Origin: Dokdonella sp.
GTDB lineage: Bacteria > Pseudomonadota > Gammaproteobacteria > Xanthomonadales > Rhodanobacteraceae
Assembly (NCBI GenBank): GCA_024707225.1
Contig: JANQAE010000001.1
Location: forward strand, 806,001 to 870,000
Direction: 5' to 3'
Length of the DNA: 64,000 bases
Each line of letters begins with the position of its first letter. The stretch's first letter is position 1. The notes under the pieces were generated by a model that had not been told where the DNA came from, did not search any database, and saw only the letters and a program-made list of their open reading frames with translations. A program made the translations under genes and the position numbers. Shown here in pieces: positions 52,579 through 64,000 of the stretch.

Positions 52579-52879
52579 CGTATCGACTCCAATCGTGGGC
52601 CGCCGCGCCGGTATCATGGCGGCGTCGGTGGGGCCCGGGGTTGAGACCTCCACGCATCCGCCGCTTGCGACCCGGAAACTCAAGGTTCCCAGGCACCCCG
52701 AAAGCGGTGACGATGCGTGTGCGGATTCGGCCGGTCGGCCGGTGTGGACTTGCCGGATTGCCCGGCAGGCCCTATTTCGTCAACGCTGCCGGCTACTTAC
52801 GTCGACGGCGCTGCGAAACCGTAGAATCATACGCCGTCGCCGACGTCCCCACAAGCCATCCGGAAACCGCCCCGAACTC
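52579..52879. other. Divergent intergenic region between rpsB and map
   Basis: About 300 bases presumably holding the rpsB and map promoters. TAGAAT at 52822-52827 may be a -10 element for map, with TTACGT 19 bases upstream as a weak -35. The rpsB leader is long enough for S2 autoregulation, but no conserved motif could be identified by eye. Confidence 0.4.
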
Positions 52880-58677: not shown

Positions 58678-58780
58678 TCGAATCGATCGATTCGTTCAGC
58701 CGGCTGGTTCGGGTGGCGCCGACGCCCCTGGCCGGTCCCGCTTCCGGGACGTTTGCGCTATGGAGCGGGGCTTTCGGCTG

Positions 58781-58954
58781 TGCTAGGGTTATAAGTTATG
58801 ACCGGACGATCGCCACGCCGGGTGGTTTTGCGACGCCGCACTTCGTACGGCGTACTTCGTAAAGCTCGGGCCGACGCCTTTCGGCGTCGTGAGGGTGATA
58901 CGCGGCAAGCGGACTGCGCCTTATCTTTGGGAATGCCCCGACCAGGAGGTCGGG
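58781..58954 (+). promoter_or_regulatory. Structured leader with hairpin-sequestered ribosome-binding site
   Basis: Upstream of the cytochrome gene lie three inverted repeats: ACGCCG/CGGCGT around 58832-58852, CGACGCC/GGCGTCG at 58872-58889 with a TTTC loop, and CCCGACC/GGTCGGG at 58937-58954. In the last, the loop AGGA together with the following GG forms the Shine-Dalgarno AGGAGG for ATG 58959. Two direct copies of ACTTCGTA occur near 58838-58858. TGCTAGGGT at 58781-58789 is a possible extended -10. This suggests RNA-level control, for example a thermosensor, riboswitch or protein-binding leader, but it matches no riboswitch class that I can name. Confidence 0.5.
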
Positions 58955-58958
58955 TCAG

Positions 58959-60884
58959 ATGGCGGGGGATTCGACGTTGTACGAGACGCAGTCTGCTGAA
59001 CGACGGATTCGAAAGGGCGGTCTTCGCTCGCTCGGTATCCTGATGCTGGTTCTACTGTCCTTCGCTGCCGCTTCGGTGACGGCGCTGGACTTCACGCCGC
59101 ACGGCACGCAACCGGGTCTGTCGTCCTCGCTCGAAGACGACTCCGGATGCCGTTCCTGCCATCGGGGCTTCTCGGCCACCGACTCGGCCTTCATGCCGCA
59201 CAGCACCTGGGGCGGCTCGATGATGGCCAACGCCGCTCGCGATCCGCTGTTCTGGGCCGCTCTCGACGTCGCCAACAACGACATCCCCGGCGTCGGCGAT
59301 TACTGCATCCGCTGCCATACGCCGCGCGGCTGGCTGCGCGGTCATTCGACCAAGCCCGGCAACGGCGGCGCAGCCAATCCGCAGGGCGCACTGGGTTGTC
59401 TGCTCGAGGGCAGCTACGATCAGGACGGCGGCAAGCAGAACGACTTCGGCGGCGTCGACTGCCATTTCTGCCACCGCATGATGCCGGAGGGGCCGCAGGC
59501 GCAGCCACTGTTTCTCGAGAACGCCAATTTCTGGGTCGACGATGCGCTGGAATGTCTGACGCCGGACGGTGCCGGTTTCGGCGGTCCGTGCCGCCGTGGT
59601 CCCTACCAGTACACGGACGGGCATCTGACGCCCCCGCACGGCTGGGTCTACTCGCCGTACCATGAGAGCTCGGCGATCTGCGGCAACTGCCACAACGTGA
59701 CCTCGCCGCAGACCGACGCCGGGACGTATGCGCAGACGCTGCATCTGAACGACGGTACCAATACCGGCATCCCGTTCCCGATCGAGCGCACCTACAACGA
59801 GTGGAAGCAGAGCCTGTTCGGTGACGCGATCTTCCGCGACGGCCTGAGCGAAGCGCCGACCGGCACGCCGGCGGTCGCGCGCGCCGAGCAGTGCCAGCAG
59901 TGCCACATGCCCGACGCGGAGGACCCCAACGCGCGCGCCTGTCAACAGAATCCGGCCGGCTCGCGCAGCGGCAACCTGCCCAAGCACGAATTCGTGGGCG
60001 GCAACACCTGGGTGCCGGCGATCATCAAGGGTCAGTACGGCGGTTCGAGTGGCATCGACCGCGACGGTGACTACGATCGCACCGTGACTGCTGCGCGCCA
60101 GATGCTGCAGTCCAGCGCACAGGTTGCGGCGAACGTGACCGCCTACACCGCGCCGTCGCCGGGCAGCGCAGGATCGATCAGCGCGAATGTCGATATCGTC
60201 AATCTGAGCGGTCACAAGCTGCCGACCGGCTATGCCGAAGGACGGCGCATGTGGATCAATGTCCAGGTCCGCGACGGCAATGCCAACGTCGTCGCCGAAA
60301 GCGCCGCTTACAACCCGTCCACCGGCGTGCTGACCCAGGACCCGCAGGCCAAGATCTACGAGGCGTTGCAGGGCATCTGGGACGCCGGTACGAACACCTG
60401 CAAGACCGAAGAGGGCGGCCGCAAGCTGTTCCACTTCGTGCTGAACAACTGTATCGCCAAGGACAATCGCATTCCGCCGCTCGGCTTCCGTCCGAAGACC
60501 GATGCCGACCCGAACGGCTACGAGACCCGGCCGGTCGGATATGCCTACCCGGAAACCTCGCCGGGTTCCGGCGTCCTGGTCAATCGCGACCGCACGCCGT
60601 ACACGTTCACGATCCCGGCCGGTACGCAGACGCCGATCAGCGTGCGCGTTTCGCTGAAGTATCAGATTTCGAGCAAGGATTACATCGAGTTTCTGCGCGA
60701 CGAGGCCGTCGAGCACGGCTTCCCGGCCGAGAACACGCTGTGTTCGGGTGGGCCCGGCCGACCCTACGACTCGGGCCCGCAGTCGCAGAGCCGCGGCGAG
60801 TATCTGTATTCGCTGTGGAACAATCCGGCCTACGGCAAGTCGCCGCCCGAAGACATCCAGACGATCTCCGTACAGGCCCGCTGA
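58959..60884 (+). CDS. Secreted pentaheme c-type cytochrome
   Basis: A periplasmic or exported electron-transfer protein of 641 residues. Signal segment LGILMLVLLSFAAASVTALD spans about 25-44. Five heme c sites are visible: CRSCH at 64-68, CIRCH at 116-120, CHFCH at 168-172, CGNCH at 241-245 and CQQCH at 312-316, all in the N-terminal half. The C-terminal part (about 370-640) lacks hemes and looks like a beta-rich domain (SISANVDIVNLSGHKLPTGY, then YTFTIPAGTQTPISVRVSLK); LSGHKLPTGYAEGRRMW is a motif frequent in multiheme cytochromes and may give an extra His ligand. It begins an operon with a lipoprotein and an amine-oxidase-like protein. Redox partner and function are unknown. Confidence 0.9.
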   Translation: MAGDSTLYETQSAERRIRKGGLRSLGILMLVLLSFAAASVTALDFTPHGTQPGLSSSLEDDSGCRSCHRGFSATDSAFMPHSTWGGSMMANAARDPLFWAALDVANNDIPGVGDYCIRCHTPRGWLRGHSTKPGNGGAANPQGALGCLLEGSYDQDGGKQNDFGGVDCHFCHRMMPEGPQAQPLFLENANFWVDDALECLTPDGAGFGGPCRRGPYQYTDGHLTPPHGWVYSPYHESSAICGNCHNVTSPQTDAGTYAQTLHLNDGTNTGIPFPIERTYNEWKQSLFGDAIFRDGLSEAPTGTPAVARAEQCQQCHMPDAEDPNARACQQNPAGSRSGNLPKHEFVGGNTWVPAIIKGQYGGSSGIDRDGDYDRTVTAARQMLQSSAQVAANVTAYTAPSPGSAGSISANVDIVNLSGHKLPTGYAEGRRMWINVQVRDGNANVVAESAAYNPSTGVLTQDPQAKIYEALQGIWDAGTNTCKTEEGGRKLFHFVLNNCIAKDNRIPPLGFRPKTDADPNGYETRPVGYAYPETSPGSGVLVNRDRTPYTFTIPAGTQTPISVRVSLKYQISSKDYIEFLRDEAVEHGFPAENTLCSGGPGRPYDSGPQSQSRGEYLYSLWNNPAYGKSPPEDIQTISVQAR

Positions 60885-60893
60885 CGTCCCGCC

Positions 60894-61523
60894 ATGATCA
60901 TTCGCGCCATGACCGTATCCGCCGCCGTGTTCGCAATGGCGGCCTGCTCCGGTATCGCCACCCTCAGCGATGCCGATCGGATCGCCGCCTACAAGTCCCA
61001 GGCCGGGCTGACCGCGAGCGCGGTCGATGCTGCCGGACGCCTCCATGGTGTCGTCGTGACGCGGCGCTATCAGGACCGTTTCCTGGTCGACGGCAAGGAC
61101 GTCTATCGCGACGTCGAGTACGGCTGGGACTACGAGCAGGGCACCGCGGTGTTCCGGGTGTTCGACACGGACGGCAACCTGCTCGTCTCCGAGACGCGCC
61201 CCAACGAGTCGGTCAGCCTGGCGCCCGAGGAGAGAGCGCGCGTCGAAGCGCTGGTGCGCGGCTATCCGGATCTGGCCGCCGCCGTCAATCAGCCCGGCGA
61301 CGTCACGTTCTGGGCCGGCGGCTTCGTCTATCGCAGCAAGGACGATCGCTACTGCGGCGAAGGATCGCGCTGCGTCAGAGCGATCGTGTCCAAGGACGGG
61401 GGTTACACCGAGGTCGCACACGCCGTCGTCGATCTGATGCGCGACCGCGTCGTCTATCCGTTCTACAAACCCGCCGGCGATCCCGTGGCCGACACTTCCA
61501 AGAAGACAGGTAAGCAGCTATGA
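60894..61523 (+). CDS. Lipoprotein of the cytochrome operon
   Basis: A 209-residue predicted lipoprotein. The lipobox MAACSG (Cys at 18) follows a hydrophobic start (MTVSAAVFAM). The mature part is a mixed alpha/beta domain (HGVVVTRRYQDRFLVDGKDV, AVFRVFDTDGNLLVSETRP, VAHAVVDLMRDRVVYPFYKP). No family was recognised. The last segment recalls the small beta-alpha domains that precede the catalytic part of copper amine oxidases, which is only a guess based on its neighbour. It starts ten bases after the cytochrome gene and overlaps the next by four. Confidence 0.78.
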   Translation: MIIRAMTVSAAVFAMAACSGIATLSDADRIAAYKSQAGLTASAVDAAGRLHGVVVTRRYQDRFLVDGKDVYRDVEYGWDYEQGTAVFRVFDTDGNLLVSETRPNESVSLAPEERARVEALVRGYPDLAAAVNQPGDVTFWAGGFVYRSKDDRYCGEGSRCVRAIVSKDGGYTEVAHAVVDLMRDRVVYPFYKPAGDPVADTSKKTGKQL

Positions 61524-62720
61524 AATCGATGCCTCGCTTGTATGCAGGGCTTGTGCTCGTCGGCCTCGGATTCGGGTTCAACGCACATGCCGATTCGCCG
61601 ACGTGCTCCGGCGCCAACGAGACCAAACTGAGCTGGCCCGCGACCGATCCGGTCTGGGAGATGTGCTGGGTTCCGGTCAACCAGAGTGTCGGTCCGCAGG
61701 GTTCGGGTCTCGAACTGCGCGACGTCCATTACAACGGCCACCTGGTCATGCGCCGCGCGCATGCGCCGCTGCTGTTCGCCGAGTACAAGGGCGGCGCCGG
61801 TGGTGACTGCTATCGCGACTGGAAGGACGATCCGAGCCCGATCCTCGCCAATACCTCGGTGCAGAACCAGCTCGGTACGCCGAACTTCGGCGCCCTGGCG
61901 CTCAACGTCTGCGACGTCTCCCAGTCGCCGACCGCGTCGTACAACACCTGTCCGTACGGACAGACCGCGCCGGCCGGCTCGAGCTGCTTCAATGGTGTCG
62001 CGATCGAGGATCTCGGTGACGAAGTGCGCCTGACGGTGCAGTACCGTGCGGACTGGTACATGTACAGCTCGCGCTGGGCGTTCTTCAAGGACGGCCGGAT
62101 CCAGCCTTATTTCGGCTTCGGCAATCGCAACGGCACGTTCAACAGCGTGACGCACTGGCATCACAACTACTGGCGTATGGAGTTCGACATCGACAACGCC
62201 GGCAATCAGGTCGTCAGCGAGAACGGCGTCGACAAGCCGACCGAGTTCTCGGCGCTGCGCAGCCCGACCGGCGGCGCGAACGGCGGCGCGCGGACCTGGG
62301 AGGTGCGCAATCCCGACTCGGGTCGCGGCTATCGCCTGATTCCGGGCGCCGGCGACTATGCCGTGCCGACCAATGATTCCGGCGCGCGGCTACCACCCGG
62401 TCGACTTTATGGCCACGATGCAGAAGACCAACGAGTACGGCGACAGCCAGAGCAACAATCTGTTCGACTGCCAGATGCACGAGAACAATCTCGTCAACAG
62501 CGAGTCGATCGCCAATACGCGCGTCGCGCTGTACTACCGCGTGGCCGTGCGCGACAGTACTGCCAACGACTGGCCGCCGGGCTGCAGCGGAGCGAGCTGC
62601 ATTCCGCAGGATTCGATGGTCTGCAAGAACACCGGACCGATGCTGGTTCCGTTCGGCGAGTGGGCGGACTACATCCACGTCAGCGGCAACGAAGGGCCGA
62701 TCAACGGCACGTCGCCCTGA
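61520..62720 (+). CDS. Secreted protein with copper-amine-oxidase-like fold, frameshifted
   Basis: An exported protein of about 400 residues with signal peptide LYAGLVLVGLGFGFNAHA. VHYNGHLVMRRAHAPLLFAE, YSSRWAFFKDGRIQPYFGFG and THWHHNYWRMEFDIDNAGNQ resemble the beta-sandwich domain of copper amine oxidases (WxFxxDGxI, HxHH, DxDxxGN). The TPQ-cofactor motif Asn-Tyr-Asp/Glu is not seen where expected, so it may not be a classic oxidase. Near 62384-62389, in GGCGCGCGGC, the frame breaks (one extra or two missing bases), and the ending GYHPVDFMATMQKTNEYGDS ... continues in another frame to 62720. Several Cys residues suggest disulphides. Similarity is judged by eye only. Confidence 0.72.
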
Positions 62721-62754
62721 GGAAGCTCTTGAACCGCGACCATTAGAGACGGAC

Positions 62755-62788
62755 GGGTGAGGTTGCCGGAAGCGACCTCGCCCTTTTT
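62755..62788 (+). terminator. Intrinsic terminator of the cytochrome operon
   Basis: GGGTGAGGTTGC, loop CGGAA, GCGACCTCGCCC followed by TTTTT: a 12-base-pair stem with two G-T pairs and a clear T-run. It separates the amine-oxidase-like gene from the next gene. Confidence 0.88.
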
Positions 62789-62814: not shown

Positions 62815-64000
62815 ATGAACACGACTGTCGGATTGGTGGGCAAATCTCTCGCGGTCGCCGTGGCGATCGCACTGTGCGGCGCAGTCGGCGTCGGCCAGGC
62901 GTCGGCGGCGGACATCGGCCGCGACAACAAGCCGGGCGCTGCCGAGCACTGGTCGGCCTGGGGCGGCACGGTCGGCGTGCGCTGGAACCGCGAACTGGCC
63001 GAGGACATCGGCCTGCTCATCGGTCAGGCCAGCGGCAAGCACGCGCAGCCGAGCTGGCGCGAGCACGAGATGTTCGACCTGCGCCAGACCGGCAGCCTCG
63101 AGTTCGACGTGCGCAACAGCAACCTGCACGATTTCATCGGCGGCTCGCTGCAGGCGCGTGGCGGCTACGTGATCGAGTCACCGGCCGGACGCATCGACCT
63201 CAGCGACTTCCGTCTGAGCCCGCGCGCCGGCGACGAGCTGATCCTCGACATCGTCGGCGGCGACGGCAAGGCCTGGTTCTACATCGACCGGCTGATGTAC
63301 GAGCTGATCGACGGCAACCAGCGTCTGGCCGTGCGCACGATGGATCTTCGCATCTCGCCGGACCTGGCCGAACGCCTCGGTCATCCGGAGGTCGCCAACT
63401 GGGCGATCGCCGACATGCAGATGACGACCGACGTGCTGCGCCAGGGCGCCAATCCGCAGCAGCCCAGCGGCGGCTACAAGTGGCACGGCACGCCGGTGCC
63501 GGGCGCCGGCGGTGCGGTCTACCAGGCCGACCTGTTCATGCAGACCTTCAGCGCCCAGTACAGCCGCTGCGACGGCTGCACCGGCGAGGGCGGCAGCGGA
63601 CGGGTCGTGTTCACGCCGTCCTCGACGCTGCGCAACAACGTCAACAACGGCACGCAGCAGGCCACGATTCCGAGCGATCCGCTCGGTACCAGCAACGCGC
63701 TGTACGCCGCCGATATTCCGTGGTGGCAGAAGTTCACCGGCAATCACGAGCCGTACGGCAACGACCAGCATCCGTTCCTGATCTGGAACCTGTACCGCCT
63801 CAACGCCGACGGCTCGATCGACCAGATCGGCCGCTCCGGCGTCAAGCACGCGTTCCTGACCACGAACTCCGGCTGCCTCGATCACCCCGGCACGAGCCAG
63901 GTGCTCGGCCGCGGCTGCTCGGACACCTACGGCACCGGCAACAACGACAGCAACAGCGATCTGGGTCCGCGTTCGGAGATCATTCCGGCGACCAACCAGT
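62815..64000 (+). CDS. Secreted protein of unknown function, C-terminus outside the window
   Basis: An exported protein of at least 395 residues, from ATG 62815 with GGGG seven bases upstream. Signal segment KSLAVAVAIALCGAVGVGQASAA. The mature part has GYVIESPAGRIDLSDFRLSP and LAVRTMDLRISPDLAERLGH, then FLIWNLYRLNADGSIDQIGR, SGVKHAFLTTNSGC, RGCSDTYGTGNNDSNSDLGP and RSEIIP. The last blocks resemble a family of uncharacterised secreted proteins with YRLxxGxxxQIGxSxxKHxF, paired Cys and CSDxY motifs. It follows the cytochrome operon but has a terminator in front, so it is probably separately transcribed. Function unknown. Confidence 0.78.
   Translation, partial: MNTTVGLVGKSLAVAVAIALCGAVGVGQASAADIGRDNKPGAAEHWSAWGGTVGVRWNRELAEDIGLLIGQASGKHAQPSWREHEMFDLRQTGSLEFDVRNSNLHDFIGGSLQARGGYVIESPAGRIDLSDFRLSPRAGDELILDIVGGDGKAWFYIDRLMYELIDGNQRLAVRTMDLRISPDLAERLGHPEVANWAIADMQMTTDVLRQGANPQQPSGGYKWHGTPVPGAGGAVYQADLFMQTFSAQYSRCDGCTGEGGSGRVVFTPSSTLRNNVNNGTQQATIPSDPLGTSNALYAADIPWWQKFTGNHEPYGNDQHPFLIWNLYRLNADGSIDQIGRSGVKHAFLTTNSGCLDHPGTSQVLGRGCSDTYGTGNNDSNSDLGPRSEIIPATNQ

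Follow-up and report, generated by a model that had tools for sequence, protein, structure and literature searches.

The window analysed here is a stretch of 64,000 nucleotides from the 4.37 Mb genome of Dokdonella sp. (contig 1, bases 806001-870000), and within it lies a unit of three genes (58959-62720) that encode, in order, an exported pentaheme c-type cytochrome, a lipoprotein and a protein related to the copper amine oxidases (CAOs). CAOs are textbook single-chain enzymes, which make their own quinone cofactor and pass electrons to oxygen. The reading preferred here is that the lipoprotein and the third protein are two parts of one split CAO-type enzyme, with the pentaheme cytochrome encoded upstream as its redox partner, and its chances are put a little below even. 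The parts of this reading that were computed are the CAO fold of a homologue of the third protein, the CAO-like fold of the lipoprotein, the linkage of the genes and the conservation of the residues at the site.

The third protein as a CAO catalytic domain

The window's copy of the third gene is frame-broken, and the fold was modelled on the intact homologue from Dokdonella immobilis with AlphaFold2 (AF2), giving a pLDDT of 85.6 and a pTM of 0.87. The 50 matches listed when Foldseek compared this model with the PDB (of 113 at E<=0.001) are all CAOs, the best having an E value of 3e-13 and a probability of 1.00, with identities of 11-15% and TM scores (query) of 0.45-0.54 amongst the 50. An earlier reading of this DNA, made from the sequence only, had described the third protein as amine-oxidase-like and had named a fold match as the test, and by the model of the homologue this description is borne out. 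The profile of the third protein also matches that of four full-length CAOs (hhalign probability 95, E 3e-8) and that of seven short CAOs from the genome G560, to which we return below (probability 99.4, E 7e-22), with these short CAOs in turn matching standard CAOs by profile at E 4e-38; control profiles from the alignments of the cytochrome and of A4, the family of a neighbouring gene, gave 0.1-0.2 in the same comparison. The match to PF01179 in Pfam is below threshold, at 11 bits for a cut-off of 27. Judged by the modelled fold, the third protein is a divergent CAO catalytic domain, with the beta-sandwich fold of D4.

Many residues of the CAO site can be followed in this family, numbered here as in the same-genus relative L034 and mapped by profile alignment. 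Y88 aligns with the Tyr of VPY and is invariant. The YRD at 97-99, also invariant, falls in the catalytic-base loop in an uncertain register, hhalign aligning the next, non-invariant Asp instead of D99. The segment W177-Y178-x-Y180 aligns with N-Y-D-Y, putting Y178 at the position of the topaquinone precursor, H210-x-H212 aligns with the copper H-x-H (HWH against HQH-type pairs) and D343 aligns with the third copper His, all three by hhalign and also in weak HMMER segments. The Tyr, YRD, WYxY, HxH and Asp are invariant in 31 of 31 relatives and in all 44 public sequences aligned (44 of the 48 found, the two sets overlapping), and further invariant residues are His290 and Asp293, for which no CAO counterpart was assignable. 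In the window the active-site-like Tyr is at 61784, YRD at 61811-61819, W-Y-x-Y at 62054-62065 and H-x-H at 62153-62161, followed in the shifted frame by the His at 62394, the Asp at 62403 and the Asp of the third-ligand position at 62553. From the sequence the topaquinone site had seemed to be lost. This does not hold, the Tyr of an invariant A-x-W-Y-x-Y aligning with the Tyr of NYDY, and the departures are found in the neighbours of that Tyr, where Trp replaces the Asn before it and the residue after it is variable, and in the third metal ligand. Several members of the family have C-terminal extensions.

Single-chain relatives of the third protein also exist. Variovorax sp. WDL1 and Nonomuraea gerenzanensis have chains of approximately 525 aa that keep W-Y-x-Y and H-x-H and score 161 and 142 bits respectively with the A1 profile. 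This profile assigns a His to the third-ligand position of the Variovorax protein; the Nonomuraea protein has the pair His-Asp, with the Asp assigned to that position and the register off by one. Going by these sequences, the Asp ligand and the division into two genes may both have come about within the branch that led to the window. The N-terminal halves of the single chains were not used as proof of what the lipoprotein is, their hhalign probability being at most 13. On the Variovorax plasmid (L205:4341-8122) the WYxY relative of CAOs is annotated as hypothetical and lies beside a galactose-oxidase-like gene.

The break in the window's own copy had been missed by the earlier reading. The listed third open reading frame (ORF) runs from 61520 to 62746 and leaves the true frame at about 62,380, relatives matching it up to about 62,385 and then matching another frame that ends at 62720; the net shift is one base, between about 62373 and 62392. 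All 31 relative proteins, which come from 30 genomes, have both parts in one frame and need no programmed frameshifting, and this explanation was rejected for the window's gene. With the two parts 73% and 74% identical to those of a same-genus relative there is no sign of long decay, and the break may be a recent mutation or a sequencing error.

The lipoprotein as a probable detached N2/N3 half

In standard CAOs the domains D2 and D3, of approximately 100 residues each, precede the catalytic domain (PMC3382800, in excerpt). The chain of the third protein has no N2/N3 of this kind, an N2/N3-like fold being found in the separate gene upstream. The lipoprotein encoded in the window itself was modelled with AF2 at a pLDDT of 84.9, and with this model Foldseek against the PDB gave a probability of 1.00, amongst the 50 matches listed, only for eight chains of the A. 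globiformis CAO (AGAO), the next match having 0.13. By profile the connection runs through a bridging clade, the lipoproteins of which match the CAO N-terminal half (N2/N3) with a probability of 94 (E 9e-8), and the window-type and bridging sets match each other with a probability of 94 (E 1e-7), controls with the CAO catalytic half and with a reversed alignment giving 0.0 to 0.2. The bridging set was gathered with a profile which already held the window-type sequences and two bridging members, these two having been found earlier at E near 1e-6. From the model and the chain of profiles, the lipoprotein would most likely be the N2/N3 half of a CAO carried on its own gene, and the lipoprotein and third gene together look like a CAO-type enzyme split across two genes.

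The lipoprotein had earlier been proposed as a membrane anchor. The window's copy does have a lipobox Cys after its signal peptide (MAAC), and amongst the 46 homologues with a complete N-terminus a lipobox is found by script pattern in 29 and by eye in two more (L067 and L068); in L090 and L093 a Cys is present at another place, and a further 13 are without any Cys over their first 45 residues, thus a membrane anchor is not essential. The protein is most likely an N2/N3 half and not merely an anchor.

Conservation of the three genes

A genome survey had been set as the check on whether the three genes are conserved together, and this survey shows that they are. The first 288 residues of the third protein find matches in 31 of 200 genomes of the order, the window's included, and the family alignment finds 2 of 299 genomes phylum-wide, both from the window's family and one of them the window's own genome. 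The cytochrome is present at every one of the 31 order-set loci, L041 having only a divergent copy (24% identity) that lies downstream, and the lipoprotein is detected in 26 with the window's sequence as query. Public genomes gave 42 loci, largely from the same organisms as the order set, with the names Dokdonella, Tahibacter, Pseudofulvimonas, Marinicella, further Lysobacterales/Xanthomonadales and some metagenome-assembled genomes whose labels are loose. With a second, more distant lipoprotein query added, the lipoprotein gene adjoins the third gene at all 42 of these loci, and the cytochrome is upstream in 39; of the three that remain, L065 and L079 begin at the end of a contig, and at L083 the only five-heme gene is a divergent one that lies downstream. 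Gaps within the module are mostly between -4 and +30 bases, the largest being 169, and the pair of lipoprotein and CAO-like genes is doubled in tandem in 6 of the 42.

The pentaheme cytochrome

The five CXXCH motifs of the cytochrome are at 59148, 59304, 59460, 59679 and 59892, and its C-terminal domain carries GHKLPTGY. All five motifs are invariant in the 32 proteins of alignment A2 (32 of the 38 cytochromes found, six truncated or divergent ones being left out), as are four of six further conserved His, the others being kept in 30 and 28; one of the six lies inside the third CXXCH. These six extra His are enough to provide second ligands for bis-His hemes, and the cytochrome would fit an electron carrier better than a catalyst. 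It has no match to the CCP_MauG model of Pfam. The C-terminal domain weakly matches cytochrome c552 (5ze8, E 0.019) and MccSep (9wt8, E 0.18) in the PDB, and the NCBIfam model of ExtKL gives 11 bits for a cut-off of 250; a likeness to the ExtKL/c552 group is detected over the C-terminal domain only, and at E 0.019 the match is a weak one. Cytochrome c552 and ExtKL of Geobacter are discussed as one pentaheme group that is tied to extracellular electron transfer (PMC11976967 and PMC6148476, both in excerpt).

The weak likeness to c552 and MccSep could also be accommodated by an enzyme that oxidises or reduces a metal (such as Cu, Fe or Mn), with the hemes receiving their electrons from the His2-Asp centre and not from a quinone. 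The triad in the third protein is now H-x-H with Asp, and the invariant H290 and D293 lie in the same protein, which would suit such a centre. It would leave the invariant Tyr at the CAO site and the YRD unexplained however, and no metal-uptake gene was recognised among the conserved members of the module, so that this explanation is given the poorest chances of those set out here.

A putative electron-transfer complex

From the preferred reading, that of a split CAO-type enzyme with a heme partner, we infer that the trio most likely forms an extracytoplasmic electron-transfer complex, and with it a cofactor, a metal, a substrate and a direction of electron flow. The lipoprotein would supply the N2/N3-like part and the third gene the catalytic beta-sandwich, with its Tyr at the topaquinone position and a metal site of H-x-H and Asp, and the two halves would assemble. 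A small substrate, perhaps an amine, would be oxidised outside the cytoplasm at a tyrosine-derived quinone and/or at the metal centre, and the five hemes would then take up the electrons and hand them on to the respiratory chain or to outside acceptors, with the enzyme acting as a dehydrogenase and not as an oxidase that consumes O2.

There are a number of results that weigh against the preferred reading. By HMMER the third protein is not significantly similar to solved CAOs when taken alone (E 0.38), with two of the three segments scoring below 0. It lacks two defining features of CAOs, the Asn-Tyr-Asp/Glu consensus and the three-His copper site, the H-x-H being kept and the third position being an invariant Asp (44/44). 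The N404A mutant of the CAO HPAO-1 makes only 5-10% topaquinone (PMC3382800, in excerpt) and as the Asn is lost here, a quinone may not form in the third protein. For the eight AGAO chains matched by the lipoprotein the E values run from 1.4e-3 to 5.5e-3, above 1e-3 in every case, and the eight are chains of a single enzyme; compared directly, the window-type lipoprotein profile and CAO N2/N3 match weakly (hhalign probability 14 to 27). The window lipoprotein has no match to PDB sequences at E 1, and Pfam gave no CAO-domain match for it or for two bridging lipoproteins. Finally, by a hand count, 19 genomes have a cytochrome match of more than 650 bits and no CAO-like match, thus the cytochrome has other uses.

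The cytochrome family is indeed wider than the module, with some match in 79 of the 200 genomes of the order, and one of the 19 genomes, G026, holds a CAO remnant. Twenty cytochrome loci without the third protein were examined (those of the 19 genomes and a second copy in G103), of which five have a gene of the A4 family nearby and one (L128) has a CAO remnant, with no lipoprotein found at any of the 20 at E 1e-3. A run of PmbA/TldD and Mur-ligase genes accompanies nine of these 20 loci, and a link of the cytochrome to it was rejected as mere location.

A second clade with a probable split enzyme

A Pfam search for CAOs found matches in 4 of 143 genomes of the class, and in one of the four, G560, the CAOs are short (approximately 400 aa) and adjoin a homologue of the lipoprotein. 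Within the family of G560 such CAOs are present in 27 of 60 genomes, usually two or more in each. This second clade is gammaproteobacterial and was followed at 23 loci from 17 genomes, with the lipoprotein in 19 of the 23 and with a MauG/peroxidase-type diheme gene and a YtkA-like gene in 15; the diheme was called by similarity to the CCP_MauG protein of L152, that one locus carrying the Pfam assignment. Of the 46 CAO copies of the clade, 25 retain the upstream Tyr and the Asp together with the topaquinone Tyr and the three His, and the other 21 are without the base Asp and the H-x-H pair, 19 of them without the topaquinone Tyr as well. None of the 25 complete-site copies has Asn before the Tyr, compared with NYDY in all 11 standard CAOs that were parsed (from 20 loci, the nine not parsed being left out).

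At L152:3366-9339 and similar loci the genes run in the order lipoprotein, degenerate CAO, complete CAO, YtkA-like protein and MauG/peroxidase-type diheme, and this pairing of degenerate and complete copies suggests heterodimers. G560 also has a protein of 603 aa (L154:5337-7145, minus strand) with a degenerate CAO-like C-terminal half, scoring 29 bits to A1 and 26 bits to PF01179 (cut-off 27), and an N-terminal region reminiscent of the lipoprotein; as the A3 profile has no match to this fused protein, it was not used as proof of the identity of the lipoprotein.

The second clade allows the preferred reading to be extended, although in this longer form it is unlikely. The enzyme would be a split descendant of CAOs that has abandoned the use of O2 and become a quinoprotein dehydrogenase linked to heme, with a metal site of the His2-Asp kind. 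Coupling to c-type hemes would have taken place in at least two lineages of the Gammaproteobacteria, to a pentaheme in the first and to a MauG/peroxidase-type diheme in the second, and in the second the making of the cofactor may be a further task of the heme protein.

The making of the cofactor could alternatively be the whole role of the heme protein, a maturase that produces the tyrosine-derived cofactor of a split enzyme whose Asn-Tyr-Asp/Glu consensus is lost, in the form of a pentaheme here and a diheme in the second clade. This is kept as the first rival because the altered consensus, in view of HPAO-1 N404A, argues against a self-made quinone. The diheme and YtkA-like genes at 15 of 23 loci are consistent with a maturase, as is the absence of Asn before the Tyr from all 25 complete-site copies. 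MauG itself makes the tryptophan tryptophylquinone (TTQ) of methylamine dehydrogenase, and mauG is located with mtoX, the gene of a copper methanethiol oxidase (PMC5739008 and PMC6405878, both in excerpt). The pentaheme however has no CCP_MauG match, and its conserved His suffice for all hemes to be six-coordinate, which suits electron transfer over peroxidase chemistry; the diheme superfamily includes plain peroxidases (PMC6405878, in excerpt) and 8 of the 23 loci have no diheme gene. A maturase is considered improbable, by a clear step more so than the extended form of the preferred reading.

The degenerate copies of the second clade bear on a further rival, to which we give the same low chances as the maturase, that the CAO-like protein is catalytically dead and, as a domain that binds a metal or a ligand, serves to present or protect the pentaheme outside the cell. 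Loss of catalysis does occur in the superfamily, given the 21 of 46 copies described above, and the replacement of the third His by Asp in 44 of 44 sequences would agree with it, as would the C-terminal extensions of several members. The Tyr, YRD, WYxY, HxH and Asp are strictly invariant in the window's family, unlike the second-clade copies that have degenerated and drift.

Layout of the locus and neighbouring genes

The features of the locus, all on the plus strand, are as follows.

58678..58958, +: 5' leader of the unit, 281 bases, with folding at chance level and partial identity to L034
58959..60884, +: exported pentaheme c-type cytochrome, 641 aa, an ORF with five CXXCH (family alignment A2)
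60894..61523, +: lipoprotein, 209 aa, read as a detached N2/N3-like half of a CAO from AF2, Foldseek and the profile chain; lipobox Cys codon at 60945
61520..62385, +: N-terminal part of the CAO-like catalytic-domain protein, read in the frame of its ATG (ORF, family alignments)
62358..62720, +: CAO-like protein, C-terminal part, in the other frame, from the matches of relatives; stop at 62718-62720
62755..62788, +: intrinsic terminator, 12-pair stem and T5 (hairpin and T5 at 62755-62783), from the terminator scan and shuffle test
62815..64000, +: start of a 660-aa neighbour gene of the A4 family, which ends beyond the window (whole gene L002:8815-10797)

Much of this layout had been described by the sequence-only reading. 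Its five-heme secreted cytochrome is there as the ORF of 641 aa, and so is the overlap of four bases (ATGA, 61520-61523) between the lipoprotein and third genes; the lipoprotein ORF with its lipobox-like MAAC is also as described, the gap before it being 9 bases and not 10. The strong intrinsic terminator is likewise upheld, with a z score of -3.2 and 2 of 200 shuffles folding as well. As the whole scan found two terminator-like sites where 2.5 were expected, the case for it depends on the strength of this hairpin itself. The leader had been called structured, and this was rejected, since its folding is at chance level (z -1.08, with 27 of 200 shuffles folding equally well); over 195 of its bases it shares 73% identity with the same-genus relative L034, thus it may still be regulatory. 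The trio has no match above any curated cut-off in Pfam or NCBIfam, and in PHROGs, a library without cut-offs, it has one weak match (E 0.0099).

The unit had also been called self-contained, which is right only in part, as the A4 gene, from 62815, belongs to a family that is near the module at 11 of 31 loci, the window's included. The A4 family consists of unnamed secreted proteins (660 aa in the window) with conserved KHAF, CSDTYG and LGPRSEI, it recurs beside the cytochrome and sometimes has two or more copies at one locus. It has no match in Pfam at E 0.01 or in the PDB at E 1. The trio does not need it, and as a defining member of the module it was rejected, being near only those 11 CAO loci and beside a CAO-less cytochrome at 5 of 20.

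A C-terminal tail resembling IFxxGFE, in its loose form, ends 36 of 48 CAO-like proteins, 15 of 30 A4 proteins, 1 of 53 cytochromes and none of 48 lipoproteins. It is absent from the CAO-like protein of the window itself. The pattern F-x-x-G-F-E-stop (which also allows TGG) occurs nine times in the window's genome and not at all in a backward control, and the tail may be a sorting signal. Elsewhere in the window, at 52640-52741 on the minus strand, there is an Rfam match to the t44 RNA of 54.6 bits (gathering score 44).

Comparison with known systems

With the CAOs (D4 of PF01179 with N2/N3) the proteins of the window share the D4 fold, the Tyr at the topaquinone position, the H-x-H and an N2/N3-like partner, and perhaps also the VPY-like Tyr and, in uncertain register, an Asp of the base loop. 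They differ in being encoded by two genes, in the replacement of the Asn and Asp/Glu round the Tyr, in having Asp for the third His, in falling below the Pfam cut-off and in the adjacent heme gene. The single-chain relatives of Variovorax sp. WDL1 and Nonomuraea are alike in W-Y-x-Y and H-x-H, and unlike in being one chain and, for Variovorax, in the third-position His. The pentaheme group of ExtKL, Gsu2801 and T. tepidum c552 (PMC11976967, in excerpt) resembles the cytochrome in its five CXXCH and in a C-terminal H-x-x-P-T-G segment, whereas the partner here is a relative of CAOs in place of porin or rhodanese genes and the match is to the C-terminal domain only. Going by the names, MccSep may be linked to ExtKL.

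Methylamine dehydrogenase with MauG, and quinohemoprotein amine dehydrogenase, offer a likeness of another kind, as they are enzymes with protein-derived quinones that work outside the cytoplasm with c-heme partners. The folds of the two dehydrogenases are not known to be related to that of CAOs. The catalytic subunit here is, in contrast, derived from CAOs, and its quinone is only putative. Amongst the titles and starts of abstracts listed, which for several searches were the first rows of longer listings and which come from a library without most subscription journals, no paper describing a CAO with a multiheme or MauG partner was found.

If the preferred reading of a split CAO with a heme partner is true, an oxidase would have been rewired into a dehydrogenase, or would have been made dependent on a heme maturase, and the residues and genes given here are those with which such rewiring may be tested. 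Several unnamed secreted families of Dokdonella, Tahibacter and Marinicella would thereby gain a redox context.

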